Shown here piece after piece: positions 6,901 through 41,563 of a stretch of DNA of 64,000 bases. The DNA is taken from assembly GCA_021323535.1 (NCBI GenBank), contig JAJONO010000002.1:1-64000 (forward strand), given 5' to 3'. The stretch is from Bacteroidota bacterium (GTDB lineage Bacteria; Bacteroidota; Bacteroidia; B-17B0; Aurantibacillaceae). A program made the position numbers and the translations under genes. How positions within the stretch are numbered: the first letter of the stretch is position 1; every line of letters begins with the position of its first letter. The notes under the pieces were generated by a model. The model searched no databases. It was not told where the DNA came from and saw nothing but the letters and a program-made list of their open reading frames with translations.

Positions 6901-6908
6901 TATTTCTG
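6901..6908 (+). promoter_or_regulatory. Putative -7 box abutting the terC start
   Basis: TATTTCTG (one mismatch to TAnnTTTG) ends exactly 4 nt before the ATG at 6913. No convincing -33 TTTG is present at 17-23 bp. If it is used, the transcript would begin at or within a base or two of the start codon. Confidence 0.3.
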
Positions 6909-6912
6909 AATT

Positions 6913-7698
6913 ATGTTCGACAATTTATTTACAGTTGAGGCGCTGTTAAGCCTCCTTAGTCTAACCGTGATGGAGATCCTTTTGGGTATAGACAATGTTA
7001 TCTTCGTTTCCATAGTAATGTCCCGCTTAAGCAAAGAGGACGCTAAAAAAGCCAGCCTTATCTGGATGAGCGTTGGTATTGTGATGCGCATCACTTTACT
7101 TTTTGTTCTTGTTTTCCTTTTAAAAGGCGAAAAAGAATTATTTACCTTGTGGGGACACGGTGTTCAGCTCAAAGACATTATCATGCTGGCCGGTGGTTTG
7201 TTTTTGTTGGTGAACAGCACACTTGAGATCCACAACAAAGTGGAAGGCGCCAATGAAGAAGGTGAAGAAGCAAAAGCCAATCTTAAAAAAGGATTTAAGG
7301 CCATTATGACACAGATCATTCTCATTGACCTTGTTTTTAGTATGGATGGGATCGTAACAGCTATTGGTATGGCCCGCCAATTGCCTATTATGGCGGCGGC
7401 AGTAGTAATAAGTATGGCGGTTATGTTTTATTATGCTCCTAAAATCTCGGCTTTCATCAACGTTCACCCTACTTTCAAAATACTTGCTTTATCCTTTCTT
7501 GTTCTCATTGCTGTTTTGCTGGTGGTAGAAGGAATTCATGTTGAAACAATTCATTTACCAAAAGGCTATATTTATTTTGCAATGGCCTTCAGTTTTATTG
7601 TAGAACTCTTAAATTTACGTTTCCGTAAAAAAACTAATCCTGTTCAATTACGCAACCATAACCTTGATGAAAATCAACCTAACAACAACAAGAAATGA
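6913..7698 (+). CDS. TerC/Alx-family integral membrane protein
   Basis: A 261-residue inner-membrane protein of the TerC family, whose members are linked to metal (Mn/Ca) export and tellurite-associated stress. Seven or so TM helices are visible. Two acidic motifs typical of the family are present: [15 protein letters not shown] in TM1 and [17 protein letters not shown] in the second half, each with Asp residues thought to line the ion path. A charged cytosolic loop ([19 protein letters not shown]) sits between the halves. The stop overlaps the start of the downstream carboxylase gene by 4 nt (ATGA), so the two are co-translated although no functional link is obvious. Confidence 0.92.
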
Positions 7699-13306: not shown

Positions 13307-13735
13307 TTATTTCCCTTTTGGCATTGGCTTTTCGTAAAAGATCATGAGCGTATCTTTCTTATCCATTAATACAAGGTCTTTTCCTTTGAACACGTAGTTA
13401 GTCACTTTCGGGAAATTCATTTTAAAATCTTCTTCAAGTCCTAACATAGGATCCGGACAAGGCTCTTTGTCAGGAGTAACAGAAGTAAACGAAAGAGCGT
13501 TTCCTTTCATAGAATATTTCAGCTGAATAAAATTGCAGGAAGTAAAACAGGCAGCTGTATTCAGTTTGAGATCAAACACAATGTGACCTTTATCTTTGCA
13601 CAGGTTATTCTTTTTACCACCACTATAAATACCTGATAAAAAATAAATGGAATTATTCTTAATGGCCGCTTTTTGGGCCTGAAGTAAGAATGACGAACAA
13701 AAAAAACAAATTATTAAAATTACTCGTATTTTCAC
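13307..13735 (-). CDS. Secreted META-domain (HslJ-like) protein
   Basis: A 142-residue protein with a signal peptide (MKIRVILIICFFCSSFLLQAQ) and a single META/DUF306-like domain. The pattern matches that fold: a cysteine-asparagine motif (TSCNFIQLKYSMKG), a conserved cysteine (EPCPDPMLGLEEDF), then VTNYVFKGKDLVLMDKKDT. Such proteins are periplasmic or lipid-anchored and are linked to stress or motility; the exact role is unknown. The start is GTG at 13735; the nearby ATG at 13737 is out of frame and meets a stop at once. An exact TAAATTTG -7 box on this strand (13764-13771) lies inside aroQ. Confidence 0.75.
   Translation of the reverse strand: MKIRVILIICFFCSSFLLQAQKAAIKNNSIYFLSGIYSGGKKNNLCKDKGHIVFDLKLNTAACFTSCNFIQLKYSMKGNALSFTSVTPDKEPCPDPMLGLEEDFKMNFPKVTNYVFKGKDLVLMDKKDTLMIFYEKPMPKGK
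13727..13734 (+). promoter_or_regulatory. Putative -7 box abutting the aroQ start
   Basis: TATTTTCA (two mismatches to TAnnTTTG in the last three bases) ends exactly 4 nt before the aroQ ATG and lies inside the first codons of the divergent META gene. There is no room for a normal leader, so either this box drives a leaderless mRNA or a promoter lies deeper in the META gene. Confidence 0.25.
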
Positions 13736-13738
13736 ATT

Positions 13739-14167
13739 ATGAAGATAGCAATAATTAATGGTCCAAATTTAAATCTTTTAGGCAAACGTGAAAAAGATAT
13801 TTACGGTAATAAGGGCTTTGACGACTATCTGAAGGAATTGCAGGAAGAATTTAAAAAAGTGGATTTTACCTATTTTCAGAGCAATTTAGAGGGAGAGCTT
13901 ATCAATAAACTTCACGAGGTCGGTTTTAGTTACGACGGTATCATTCTCAATGCGGGCGGCTATACTCATACATCTGTTGCTTTAGCCGACGCGGTTGCAT
14001 CTATCAAAACTCCGGTTATTGAAGTTCATATTTCAAATATCTTTGCGCGGGAAGATTACAGGCACGTGTCGTATATCGGCGCTAAATGTAAAGGAAGTAT
14101 TTCGGGTTTTGGCTTGAAAAGTTATGAGCTGGCGGTGATCGCGTTTCTTCATGGCGACAAAAAATAA
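13739..14167 (+). CDS. aroQ: Type II 3-dehydroquinate dehydratase
   Basis: Cytosolic shikimate-pathway enzyme converting 3-dehydroquinate to 3-dehydroshikimate. The 142 residues match the normal length of the dodecameric type II enzyme. Visible catalytic and binding residues: Arg17 and Tyr22 on the mobile lid (GKREKDIYG), the substrate loop NAGGYTHTSVALADA, and His97 in EVHISN followed by REDYRHVS. No other shikimate gene is nearby. It is head-to-head with the META gene; the two start codons are separated by only three bases. Confidence 0.95.
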   Translation: MKIAIINGPNLNLLGKREKDIYGNKGFDDYLKELQEEFKKVDFTYFQSNLEGELINKLHEVGFSYDGIILNAGGYTHTSVALADAVASIKTPVIEVHISNIFAREDYRHVSYIGAKCKGSISGFGLKSYELAVIAFLHGDKK

Positions 14168-19641: not shown

Positions 19642-20121
19642 TTGATAAAAACTACTTTCCTGATATTTTTTTTTATAACCTGTGTCGCAAATGCGCAGGA
19701 TGATTACTCCTACGATGAGAGTTTCAATTTCAGGAACTATGAGGGTGAGCCCCGTTTTAGCGAGGTAAAATATATGAGCCCTTATTACGGTAGATCATAT
19801 CTTCGTGACCCGCAAAAATTCTTTGATTCGCTTAACGTTATTTCATATTCAAAAGCAGTTAGTATTGCACGTAAGAAAAAACATGCGAAGGTAAGCACCA
19901 TACAACTAGTGTATTCAAATACGGATCATAAAAAGAGCTACTGGGAAGTAAAAATCGGAGGCAAATCCTGGGCGGCATGTGACGCGCCTCTTAAGTACCG
20001 TTTAACTGTACGCGGATGGGCAAACGGCATTGGTTATGATAAGATCGTAAGGATAGACGCAGTAACAGGTAAAGTCATAAAAACGTATAAAAGGGCCTAT
20101 AGATTTATCTGGCATTTTTAA
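19642..20121 (+). CDS. Small secreted protein, weakly PepSY-like
   Basis: A 159-residue protein with a signal peptide (MIKTTFLIFFFITCVANAQ) starting at TTG; no in-frame ATG gives a complete signal peptide. The mature part has a Tyr/Asp-rich start and then a region reminiscent of a PepSY fold: helix SYSKAVSIARKKKHA, strands IQLVYSNTD and YWEVKIGGKSW, and the end KIVRIDAVTGKVIKTYK, which is the usual last hairpin of PepSY domains. Function unknown. Confidence 0.65.
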   Translation: MIKTTFLIFFFITCVANAQDDYSYDESFNFRNYEGEPRFSEVKYMSPYYGRSYLRDPQKFFDSLNVISYSKAVSIARKKKHAKVSTIQLVYSNTDHKKSYWEVKIGGKSWAACDAPLKYRLTVRGWANGIGYDKIVRIDAVTGKVIKTYKRAYRFIWHF

Positions 20122-28309: not shown

Positions 28310-28317
28310 TATTTTTA
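28310..28317 (+). promoter_or_regulatory. Putative -7 box abutting the beta-lactamase-fold gene
   Basis: TATTTTTA (one mismatch to TAnnTTTG) ends exactly 4 nt before the ATG at 28322, implying a leaderless or nearly leaderless mRNA. No good -33 box is seen. Confidence 0.35.
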
Positions 28318-28321
28318 CGCC

Positions 28322-29737
28322 ATGATAAGACCCTTATTCTTTCTTGTCCTTTTCCTTGTGAGCGGGGCTATCATGGCCCAGGGCGACAAACTTAAAAACA
28401 ATGAAGTTGCCTTAAAGACAAAACTTTTGTTCAACGAGAAAAAGTACAGTGACATTTACGCGCTTTTCTCCACTAAATTAAAAAACGAAATGAAAGAACA
28501 GGATTTTTGTGATTTCCTGAACCGTTCCTTATTTGTTTTATACGGCGATATAGATAGTCTTGAATATGTGAAAGAAACCCAATCCTGTCATTGTTATCTT
28601 ACACATTTTAAATATGGCGATTTTCAGATGAACCTCGCTACCGATAAAGAGAACAACATCGAACTGATCAGTTTTATTCCTGTATCCACATCAAAATTTT
28701 TTAAGATCACCGATTACTTATCGGATAATAAGAAAGAATCTTCGTTTGATTCGCTGGTAGATAAACTTGTAAAGGATCATATGCAAAGTCCGCAGAACTG
28801 TGGCCTTAGCATTGGTGTTTTTAACAATGGAAAAGAATCGTTTTACAATTACGGCGAAGTGAAGCGCGGATCAAAAACGCTTGCAACTTCATCTACTATT
28901 TATGAAATTGGCTCTGTTTCAAAAGTATTCTGCGGTATTCTTCTCGCCAATGCTATTCTCGAAAATAAAGTAAACGCGGAAGACGATATCCGCAATTATT
29001 TACCGGGAGAATATCCTAATCTCCAGGTTGGCGATAATTACATTCAGCTTATCCATTTGGTTAATCACACGAGCGGATTACCCCGTTTACCCGACGATAT
29101 AGGGGCCCAGCAGGATTACAACGCGCTTAATCCTTACAAAAATTATAACAGGGAAATGGTATTTAATTATCTGAAAAAAATACAGCTTTCGAAACAACCG
29201 GGAAAAGTTTGCGAATATTCTAATATTGGAATGGGACTACTCGGCATTATTCTTGAACGCGTTTACGGAAAACCATTTGAAGAACTGGTAAAGGAAAAGA
29301 TAACATCGTCTTTTGGCATGAACAATACCAGTATCAGACTAAATACCGACCAGGAAAAAAAGTTTGCCACAGGATACAATATTGTTGGAAAAGAAACGCC
29401 TCATTGGGAGCTTGAAGCTATTGCCGCTGCAGGAGCAGTGAGATCAAGCCCCGGCGATATGCTTACTTTTTTGAAAGCGAATCTCGAAGAAAAAAATGAA
29501 GCTCTAAAGCGTTCACATCAATCTACTTTTAATACCGGGAATACTATTGCGATGGCCTGGCATATTATGAAGACAAAACAGGGCAATAATATGATATGGC
29601 ACAACGGTGGTACATTTGGTTTCTCGGCCTTTATAGGTTTTGTAAAAGAGAAAAACTGCGGCGTTGTTATTCTGAATAACTCGGGAGGCAATGTTGATTT
29701 TATAGCTCTTCAGCTGCTAAAACATCTTCAGCAGTAA
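28322..29737 (+). CDS. Beta-lactamase-fold serine hydrolase with N-terminal DUF3887-like domain
   Basis: A 471-residue exported protein. Signal peptide (ending AIMAQ at residue 20), then a DUF3887-like domain (about 30-120: LLFNEKKYSDIYALFS) and a class C beta-lactamase / AmpH-type serine hydrolase domain (about 140-470). The catalytic set is visible: Ser198-x-x-Lys201 (SVSK), Tyr299-Ser-Asn301 (YSN) and His427-Asn-Gly (WHNGGTFGFSAF). Such proteins are mostly periplasmic D-amino-acid peptidases or esterases acting on peptidoglycan fragments or small esters; true beta-lactam resistance is not implied. Single gene, ended by a clear terminator. Confidence 0.9.
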   Translation: MIRPLFFLVLFLVSGAIMAQGDKLKNNEVALKTKLLFNEKKYSDIYALFSTKLKNEMKEQDFCDFLNRSLFVLYGDIDSLEYVKETQSCHCYLTHFKYGDFQMNLATDKENNIELISFIPVSTSKFFKITDYLSDNKKESSFDSLVDKLVKDHMQSPQNCGLSIGVFNNGKESFYNYGEVKRGSKTLATSSTIYEIGSVSKVFCGILLANAILENKVNAEDDIRNYLPGEYPNLQVGDNYIQLIHLVNHTSGLPRLPDDIGAQQDYNALNPYKNYNREMVFNYLKKIQLSKQPGKVCEYSNIGMGLLGIILERVYGKPFEELVKEKITSSFGMNNTSIRLNTDQEKKFATGYNIVGKETPHWELEAIAAAGAVRSSPGDMLTFLKANLEEKNEALKRSHQSTFNTGNTIAMAWHIMKTKQGNNMIWHNGGTFGFSAFIGFVKEKNCGVVILNNSGGNVDFIALQLLKHLQQ

Positions 29738-40313: not shown

Positions 40314-40802
40314 ATGACAACAGCTCCAACCATACGCGTGGAAGTGGTCGACTTTATTGAACCACTTACCACTTACGCACACGGTGTAAAACTCCTTCTC
40401 CGGTACAACGACGTTTCATTTACCTGCAATTATGTTTATCCTCCTTTCCTTTATTCAGGTAAAGAGCCTAACCTGCCACAACTCGTAGCGGAACATGAGG
40501 AGAAATACCGCAACATTTTTAAACCCGGAAGCACCCTCGATGCCGAAGCCTATCTTCATGAAACGGCCAGCGATCACCGGGTGGGCAGACTGAGATCAGA
40601 TCCTGCAAAAGATATTAAAGAACTTGCTTTGCTCGATTGGGAAATAAAAGGACGGGTACTTACTGAAATGGAAGAAGAGGAAGTATTGGTAGATTGCGGC
40701 ATTCCACTTGTATGTTTTTGTAATTCTTCGCTGATAAAACCAGGAGATTACATCAATGCCATTGGTGAACTCAGGCTCTTCCCAGTAAGAACGACCTTGT
40801 AA
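40314..40802 (+). CDS. Soluble protein of unknown function
   Basis: A 162-residue protein without signal peptide or TM helix. A beta-rich start (TIRVEVVDFIEPLTTYAHGV, LLLRYNDVSFTCNYVYPPFL) leads to an acidic helical middle and a final strand pair (DCGIPLVCFCNSSLIKPGDY, INAIGELRLFPVRTTL). I recognise no family. The 196-bp gap before it shows no promoter or structure I can support. Confidence 0.65.
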   Translation: MTTAPTIRVEVVDFIEPLTTYAHGVKLLLRYNDVSFTCNYVYPPFLYSGKEPNLPQLVAEHEEKYRNIFKPGSTLDAEAYLHETASDHRVGRLRSDPAKDIKELALLDWEIKGRVLTEMEEEEVLVDCGIPLVCFCNSSLIKPGDYINAIGELRLFPVRTTL

Positions 40803-40810
40803 CAAAATCG

Positions 40811-40818
40811 TATCTTTG
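40811..40818 (+). promoter_or_regulatory. -7 box abutting the GDCCVxC gene
   Basis: TATCTTTG, an exact TAnnTTTG, ends exactly 4 nt before the ATG at 40823. A TTG 11 bp upstream is too close to be a normal -33. A leaderless mRNA is the simplest reading. Confidence 0.5.
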
Positions 40819-40822
40819 CGTT

Positions 40823-41182
40823 ATGAAGAAAACGATCCTGCTTTCTATAAGTATTGTTCTTGTGACCGCTGTTTCATTTTTTACTTACATGTATTTTAAT
40901 ATGTGTAATTATGAAGAAAAAGCGGAGCAGAAGAAAAAAACTGAAATGCAGGATAGTTGCTGTAAAAAAAATGTAACTGGTGAAGCAGATAAACCTTTAG
41001 GCTCTTTTCAGACTGAAATTACCTGTCCTGAATGTAAATTTAAAAAGACAGAAACACTGCCAACAGAAATATGTCAGTTAGTATATACCTGCAGCAATTG
41101 TAATAAAGAACTGAAACCAAAAGAAGGCGACTGCTGTGTATTTTGTTCGTATGGCACTCATAAATGCCCTTCAAAACAATAA
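40823..41182 (+). CDS. GDCCVxC-domain protein
   Basis: An 119-residue protein with one N-terminal TM helix (ILLSISIVLVTAVSFFTYMY) and then a cysteine-rich part: a CC pair (QDSCCKKN), two CxxC knuckles (TCPECKF, TCSNCNKEL) and the family-defining end EGDCCVFCSYGTHKCP. Without the TM segment this is the GDCCVxC domain found in Bacteroidota and Proteobacteria, thought to bind a metal; some relatives carry selenocysteine at the CC pair, but here both are plain cysteines (TGC TGT). It is probably anchored with its metal site outside the cytosol. Single gene. Confidence 0.83.
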   Translation: MKKTILLSISIVLVTAVSFFTYMYFNMCNYEEKAEQKKKTEMQDSCCKKNVTGEADKPLGSFQTEITCPECKFKKTETLPTEICQLVYTCSNCNKELKPKEGDCCVFCSYGTHKCPSKQ

Positions 41183-41227: not shown

Positions 41228-41563
41228 ATGGCGTACACTGGTTTTTTTATACTCGTTTTTGTTCTTTTACCAGCCATAATGGGAGGAATAATTGTGTACT
41301 CGCGATTAATGCCAAGACGAAAAAAAGAACAAGGTTTTGAATTTGTTTACATCGAAAAAGACGGTACCGTACGCGAACTTAATGGCAACGAAGAAGACTT
41401 CCTGAACCAGCCTTTTTTTCCGGGCGATCCGAATAAACCTTACATCAAAAGAAATTACGACGACAGATTAAACGGAGATATCTCTGGTTTCATTCTCAGG
41501 GAAAGAGTTCCGGCTACTATCAAAATAAGGAAGAAGGACCATCGCGCGATAAATCCAAATTAA
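41228..41563 (+). CDS. Single-TM protein of unknown function
   Basis: An 111-residue protein with one TM helix at the N-terminus (FFILVFVLLPAIMGGIIVYS) and a short cytosolic basic/acidic tail (KKEQGFEFVYIEKDGTVREL, DDRLNGDISGFILRE). Family not recognised. A TAACTTCA -7-like box (41214-41221) ends 6 nt before the ATG. Confidence 0.65.
   Translation: MAYTGFFILVFVLLPAIMGGIIVYSRLMPRRKKEQGFEFVYIEKDGTVRELNGNEEDFLNQPFFPGDPNKPYIKRNYDDRLNGDISGFILRERVPATIKIRKKDHRAINPN

Follow-up and report, generated by a model that had tools for sequence, protein, structure and literature searches.

Genes with an apparent transcription start at the first codon, or a few bases from it, in a Bacteroidota genome

Genes and candidate promoter boxes in the window

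The window analysed here, 64 kb in length, is the beginning of contig 113 of a Bacteroidota draft genome of 5.31 Mb. An initial annotation had singled out four of its genes as having likely leaderless mRNAs, each with a -7 box that ends 4 nt before the ATG, and all four boxes are indeed present in the sequence at that distance. The genes, their boxes and the divergent neighbour of one of them are as follows.

6901..6908, plus strand: weak -7-like box TATTTCTG, arranged as TATTTCTG-AATT-ATG with the ATG at 6913
6913..7698, plus strand: TerC-family membrane protein, predicted near-leaderless or leaderless (PF03741, E 5e-35)
13307..13735, minus strand: divergent gene with a META domain and a signal-peptide-like start, possibly leaderless (PF03724, E 9e-9, and the translation)
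13727..13734, plus strand: putative -7 box TATTTTCA of aroQ, arranged as TATTTTCA-CATT-ATG with the ATG at 13739
13739..14167, plus strand: aroQ, type II 3-dehydroquinate dehydratase, predicted leaderless (PF01220, E 7e-55; TIGR01088 above its cut-off)
13739..13746, minus strand: possible -7 box TATCTTCA of the META gene, ending about 4 nt before its GTG
28310..28317, plus strand: putative -7 box TATTTTTA, arranged as TATTTTTA-CGCC-ATG with the ATG at 28322
28322..29737, plus strand: serine beta-lactamase-fold protein, predicted leaderless (PF00144, E 9e-54)
40811..40818, plus strand: putative -7 box TATCTTTG, full consensus, arranged as TATCTTTG-CGTT-ATG with the ATG at 40823
40823..41182, plus strand: small Cys-rich protein whose N-terminus resembles a signal peptide and which carries a GDCCVxC domain (NF041374, 87.9 bits, cut-off 40)

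Only the box at 40811 matches TAnnTTTG in full; that at 28310 lacks the G at -5, that at 13727 has CA in place of TG, and that at 6901 carries a C at -7 and departs from the TAnnTT core. If the class is taken to comprise TAnnTTTG-like boxes 4 or 5 nt from a start, four sites belong to it by spacing and one by full consensus. The -33 element is poor, as had been pointed out, none of the four boxes being preceded by a TTG at the usual 19–20 nt. Two more genes described as having 6-nt spacing do so (TATCTTTA-TTAGGT-TTG at 19642 and TAACTTCA-TTTTAC-ATG at 41228). The former is a TTG-started open reading frame with a PepSY domain, which is absent from the list of the gene caller used below and whose start is uncertain.

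Box spacing at gene starts of the same genome

Genes were called by codon usage alone, so that the choice of start was independent of the upstream sequence, and leading genes were retained where a same-strand neighbour lay at least 40 nt away or an opposite-strand neighbour did not overlap. Set 1 comprised the 840 kb first sampled, including the window (GC 39%, 447 leading genes), and set 2 a further 775 kb from other stretches of the same genome (401 leading genes). The pooled sample used for permutation was 1.615 Mb with 846 genes that have an upstream gap; each upstream column was permuted among genes within GC terciles, a control that preserves position-specific base preferences. The caller makes start errors, as seen from its placing the starts of 28322 and 6913 downstream (at 28373 and 7018), against the starts of their orthologues; 40823 and 41228 are missing from its list altogether. 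Among the four named genes only aroQ entered the counts, as did its divergent neighbour, and the gene-start count is therefore independent of the other three cases.

Unrestricted whole-genome counts were abandoned in favour of gene-start counts, since spacing 4 could not be separated in them from a reversed-pattern control: 107 (control 123) at spacing 4, 82 (94) at spacing 2 and 74 (94) at spacing 10. In the window alone, raw occurrences of TAnnTTTG followed by ATG number 3 at spacing 4 and 4 each at 12 and 27, and spacing 4 is no outlier. A signal emerges in larger samples limited to gene starts; the count by spacing that the initial annotation had proposed speaks for the most part in its favour when made at predicted gene starts, and is uninformative as an unrestricted raw count.

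At the gene starts of this genome the looser pattern TAnnTT peaks at 4 nt. Relative to dinucleotide shuffles, it is found there 26 times against 6.6 expected in set 1 and 18 times against 6.3 in set 2 (Poisson, 9e-9 and 1e-4), with a peak that is sharp in the first (10, 26 and 10 at 3, 4 and 5 nt) and less so in the second (9, 18 and 14). Among the 846 pooled genes TAnnTT stands at 4 nt in 44 cases against 19.2 expected, TAnnTTTG in 8 against 0.8 and TAnnTTTA in 15 against 2.7, with 0 of 1000 column permutations in each instance. The enrichment of the 4-nt spacing that had been anticipated is accordingly found, in the pooled genes and in set 2 taken alone. The anticipated sharp peak, by contrast, holds for the broad set described below but not for strict TAnnTTTG in this genome, which occurs 8, 8, 5 and 8 times at 4, 5, 6 and 7 nt (in set 2 alone, 3 times at 4 nt and 5 times at 5 nt). 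As spacings 5–7 are raised as well, the class in this genome is best described as having no leader or one of 1–3 nt. No TAnnTTTG lies at spacings 0–2 among the 846 leading genes, as would be expected if the start codon must be within the transcript.

At spacing 4 in this genome TAnnTTTN ends in A 15 times and in G 8 times, while the broad set has G in 18 cases and the three other bases combined in 15. Among spacings 0–11, TAnnTTCA is raised at 4 only in this genome (6 against 1.2; 2 of 1000 permutations). An enrichment of the -33 TTG at gaps of 19–20 nt was suggested by 5 of 35 near boxes of this genome, but near boxes pooled with those of the other genomes do not look enriched (TAHHTTTG; 5 of 74 near boxes versus 29 of 264 far boxes).

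Box spacing in other Bacteroidota

A broad set was assembled from 80 loci fetched through aroQ, whose record titles we take to place them in Bacteroidota; with aroQ itself left out, it holds 718 genes in 363 protein families. TAnnTTTG occurs in it 0, 0, 0, 1, 18, 8, 7, 4 and 1 times at spacings 0 to 8, the 18 cases at 4 nt being spread over 16 loci, and the mean at 9–59 nt is 2.5 per position. Counted as families with at least one such box, the series becomes 0, 0, 0, 1, 14, 3, 3, 3 and 1. Farther out, eight families each have the box at 22, 25 and 28 nt, distances that would suit ordinary leadered promoters. With every family given a total weight of one, the values for 4, 25 and 28 nt are 5.9, 5.7 and 5.6, respectively.

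Conservation was followed in 2157 ortholog-like pairs. Both members retain TAHHTT in 105 of 814 pairs at 4 nt, 16 of 155 at 5 nt, 16 of 90 at 6 nt and 4 of 47 at 3 nt; elsewhere in the first 0–39 nt it is kept in at most about 4% of pairs (for example, 13 of 310 at 17 nt). aroQ and xerD make up the bulk of the pairs that keep it at 4 nt, and retention of the strict form TAHHTTTG is lower at 4 nt (4 of 92) than at 5 nt (15 of 43) or 6 nt (10 of 36). Because 5- and 6-nt boxes are retained at similar rates, it is the close placement that is conserved, and not the number 4 as such. By family, 7 of the 107 multi-member families keep TAHHTT at 4 nt in some pair, and no other spacing is kept in more than 2. 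A clear peak is not seen in two relatives represented by small samples, G001 (93 leading genes) and G003 (133 leading genes), where TAnnTTTG at 4 nt is found in neither and TAnnTT 2 and 6 times, respectively.

Of the 25 members of the xerD-like family, 7 carry TAHHTT at 4 nt (L185, L177, L175, L216, L166, L194 and L208), that of L185 being a tyrosine recombinase by Pfam. The same arrangement is present in 4 of 5 members of the Sua5 family, 3 of 10 of RibD, 2 of 10 of PrmC, 2 of 7 of RNase Y and 2 of 7 of MgtE, these families each being named from one Pfam-checked member. The sequences themselves show a surplus of boxes 4 nt from the start, a smaller one at 5–7 nt, and its occurrence in many families.

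Such an excess could in principle reflect a translation signal of leadered mRNAs, with the TA..TT at -12 to -7 forming an A- or AT-rich ribosome site of the non-Shine-Dalgarno type and no promoter box. In this genome A is over-represented at -12 to -10 and at -3, and the phylum is usually described as having AT-rich sites of that type. The excess nevertheless survives a control that keeps the composition of each column, and the fuller forms ending in TTTG and TTTA show a stronger enrichment than the core. Moreover, TAnnTTTG is missing from spacings 0–2 in the broad set as it is in this genome, and the six best conserved columns upstream of aroQ are -12, -11 and -8 to -5. All this makes a translation signal an improbable explanation.

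We consider it quite probable that these boxes serve the housekeeping sigma factor of Bacteroidota as -7 elements and lie so near the start codon that transcripts start on its A or no more than about 3 nt away. The 4-nt spacing would place the transcription start at the A of the start codon itself, and the other close spacings would place it within about 3 nt. In published work, the box spans -12 to -5 in Flavobacterium psychrophilum (PMC9723704), and in F. johnsoniae the start predicted from RNA-seq is separated from the box by 4–5 nt in 241 of 434 candidate promoters (PMC6847099). A transcription start 4–5 nt after the box means that a spacing of 4 sets +1 on the A of ATG, and the view of the initial annotation, a box at about -12 to -5 with the A as first transcribed base, agrees with these offsets. 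Actual use of the boxes, a first transcribed base at the A and leaderless initiation are our inferences from the spacing and its conservation; with no leader or almost none, ribosomes would have to engage the 5'-terminal start codon directly. A small share of genes appears to have its transcription start at the first codon or a few bases away. The proposal of likely leaderless mRNAs holds in so far as a class with a 4-nt excess at gene starts exists in this genome and in other Bacteroidota, but a clean 4-nt class is not found in the genome itself.

The genes at 6913, 28322 and 40823

For some of the named genes the 4-nt spacing may be a matter of chance, a possibility to which we give somewhat less than an even chance: 40823 could share a transcript with its upstream neighbour 20 nt away, and the box of 6913 is poor. 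A same-strand gene at 40314–40802 ends 20 nt ahead of 40823, and the 40811 box begins 8 nt past its stop codon. Against chance in this instance stand the full consensus of the 40811 box and the orthologue at L072, which has TAnnTT at 4 nt as well (TAAATTGT-4-ATG) and is, of the 17 aligned rows including our own, the sole orthologue to align from residue 1. That orthologue lies directly behind what is presumably the end of a P-type ATPase gene. The case for 40823 as a leaderless gene is weak.

The box of 6913 breaks the TAnnTT core, and 10 of the 15 TerC rows have TAHHTT at 6 nt (our own row, which lacks TAHHTT, being counted; starts were movable by up to 12 nt upstream or 6 nt downstream, as for the same-genus and class-level aroQ rows below). 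The remaining rows with TAHHTT have it at 3 nt (L090), 7 nt (L089), 16 nt (L098) and 17 nt (L093), the first two being the nearest relatives of the TerC gene in the window. That 12 of the 15 rows carry TAHHTT at 3, 6 or 7 nt speaks against chance, and predicted near-leaderless is the better word for this gene.

For 28322, none of the 25 NCBIfam models listed, of 46 matched, reaches its own cut-off. Of the 10 rows read, 4 including our own align from the ATG at residue 1. Their upstream regions show TAATTTTA-4-ATG in L119, TATTTTTA-4-ATG in L120 and a box 3 nt before the ATG in L121, so that with three orthologues behind it 28322 makes a fair candidate for a leaderless gene.

Conservation of the aroQ box

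A match to aroQ was found in 40 of 41 genomes, and the N-terminus is common to the orthologues; 38 of the 40 rows have an ATG at the aligned start or close to it (G015 and G033 were dropped). Among the 23 rows from the same genus, 20 have TAHHTT[TC]N exactly 4 nt before the ATG (22 as TAnnTT), and none has it at 0–3 or 5–8 nt. Of the three exceptions, G009 and G024 keep TAHHTT at 4 nt and G008 has TATCTTTG at 9 nt. At class level the motif is at 4 nt in 5 of 15 rows, which carry TATCTTTG, TATATTTA or TATCTTTC there. Conservation of the exact 4-nt spacing of aroQ is shown by these sequences, and aroQ is the strongest of the four predicted leaderless cases.

A second, partly overlapping collection, the 80 named loci less L174, L178 and L214 (no ATG near the aligned start), was read with some freedom in the start, in that an in-frame ATG as far as 18 nt before the aligned start or 6 nt after it was accepted. 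In 11 of these 77 loci TAnnTT[TC]N precedes aroQ at 4 nt, and in 9 it does so at 5 nt. The box is at 5 nt in 4 of 7 records titled Pedobacter and at 14–17 nt in 4 of 5 titled Flavobacterium; the close-box state has therefore been gained and lost. A literature search met no report of a leaderless aroQ in Bacteroidetes, and was too narrow for the case to be called unreported.

The head-to-head arrangement of aroQ and the META gene

The aroQ box overlaps the first codons of the divergent META gene, whose GTG start is 3 nt from the aroQ ATG. The initial annotation saw no other room at 13739, which overstates the case: a promoter may sit inside the divergent coding sequence, just as the 13727 box does. 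In the head-to-head region 13733–13746 each possible -7 box lies within the first codons of the partner. The sequence TATCTTCA is forced by aroQ codons 1–3 (ATGAAGATA) and is therefore not independent evidence for a META promoter.

Among 21 same-genus loci, 7, the present one included, have a divergent open reading frame with exactly the 3-nt gap (G000, G002, G003, G006, G007, G014 and G021), all matching the META protein (G000 being the query), and G019 has a META-matching frame that starts 29 nt from aroQ. In 11 others the divergent partner is xerD-like, with listed possible starts 27–56 nt away; that of L042 is a tyrosine recombinase by Pfam and the other ten are named from their N-termini. 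G008 and G016 have no divergent open reading frame of at least 80 aa starting within 60 nt of aroQ.

These loci bear on the suggestion that the aroQ box is conserved only as the start-codon region of the divergent gene (the reverse complement of RTGAAAHTA), or because it forms an inverted repeat together with ATGAAGATA to which a regulator binds. It is true that TATTTTCA complements the first codons of the META gene and that the box and aroQ codons 1–3 form an imperfect dyad. Yet all 11 loci with the xerD-like partner keep TAnnTT at 4 nt before aroQ (G009 only as TAAATTAA), and the box, being present with either partner, is not merely the partner's start codon. In addition, G004, G005, G009, G013 and G024 lose the CAT arm wholly or partly while TAHHTT is kept, and the class-level rows carry their own forms of the box at 4 nt. 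We regard this suggestion, in either version, as very improbable.

If the aroQ box and its opposite are both -7 elements, the pair at 13735/13739 would consist of two head-to-head genes with a 3-nt gap, the box of each placed inside the first codons of the other, and RNA polymerase could presumably not occupy both promoters together. It is conceivable, if rather unlikely, that in part of the genus aroQ and the META gene are both leaderless, the first three codons of each serving as the -7 box of the other, so that two starts and two promoters within about 20 bp would make an either/or switch. Bidirectional promoters of E. coli would be a parallel, in that overlapping, opposed promoters exclude each other there; their start sites most commonly lie 18 bp apart, and also 10 or 23 bp (PMC12825309), whereas the predicted aroQ and META starts would be 4 bp apart if both are used, and both leaderless.

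Relation to known leaderless genes and implications

The arrangement described here is, on the sequence evidence, ordinary in kind for the phylum, and the kind is already known, since leaderless mRNAs have been published for F. psychrophilum and F. johnsoniae, and short-leader mRNAs for Bacteroides thetaiotaomicron. As reported, 5.5% of mRNAs are leaderless in F. psychrophilum, among 890 CDSs with mapped transcription starts (PMC9723704), about 3.7% of 5' UTRs are shorter than 10 nt in B. thetaiotaomicron (PMC7366714), and in F. johnsoniae leaders exceed 10 nt in 87% of transcripts with a probable promoter (PMC6847099). The two Flavobacterium species resemble the present case in phylum, in the TAnnTTTG box at -12 to -5 and in the small minority of genes involved; their starts were mapped by or predicted from RNA sequencing, whereas here they are deduced from spacing and conservation. 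The short-leader examples given for B. thetaiotaomicron are transposases, sensor kinases and transporters (PMC7366714), in contrast to aroQ and other housekeeping genes here. Actinobacteria and Deinococcus-Thermus likewise have the promoter box at a set distance immediately ahead of the start codon, but leaderless genes are far commoner there, averaging 19.2% and 39.4%, respectively; the same 2011 survey used a Pribnow-like model and assigned leaderless genes to 1 of 37 Bacteroidetes/Chlorobi genomes (PMC3160421). By contrast, Bacteroidetes are cited elsewhere as reported to have many leaderless genes (PMC5397173).

The gene-start sequence test needs no RNA data and is therefore applicable to genomes without a cultured member. 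Bacteroidota mRNAs mostly lack Shine-Dalgarno sites, and how their ribosomes choose the start codon is still being worked on. The test yields candidate leaderless or near-leaderless genes, foremost aroQ, along with the xerD, Sua5, RibD and PrmC families. The parts worth following are the conserved aroQ case and its head-to-head neighbour 3 nt away. As the predicted near-absence of leaders in these candidates recurs across genera, what would keep such genes leaderless becomes testable.
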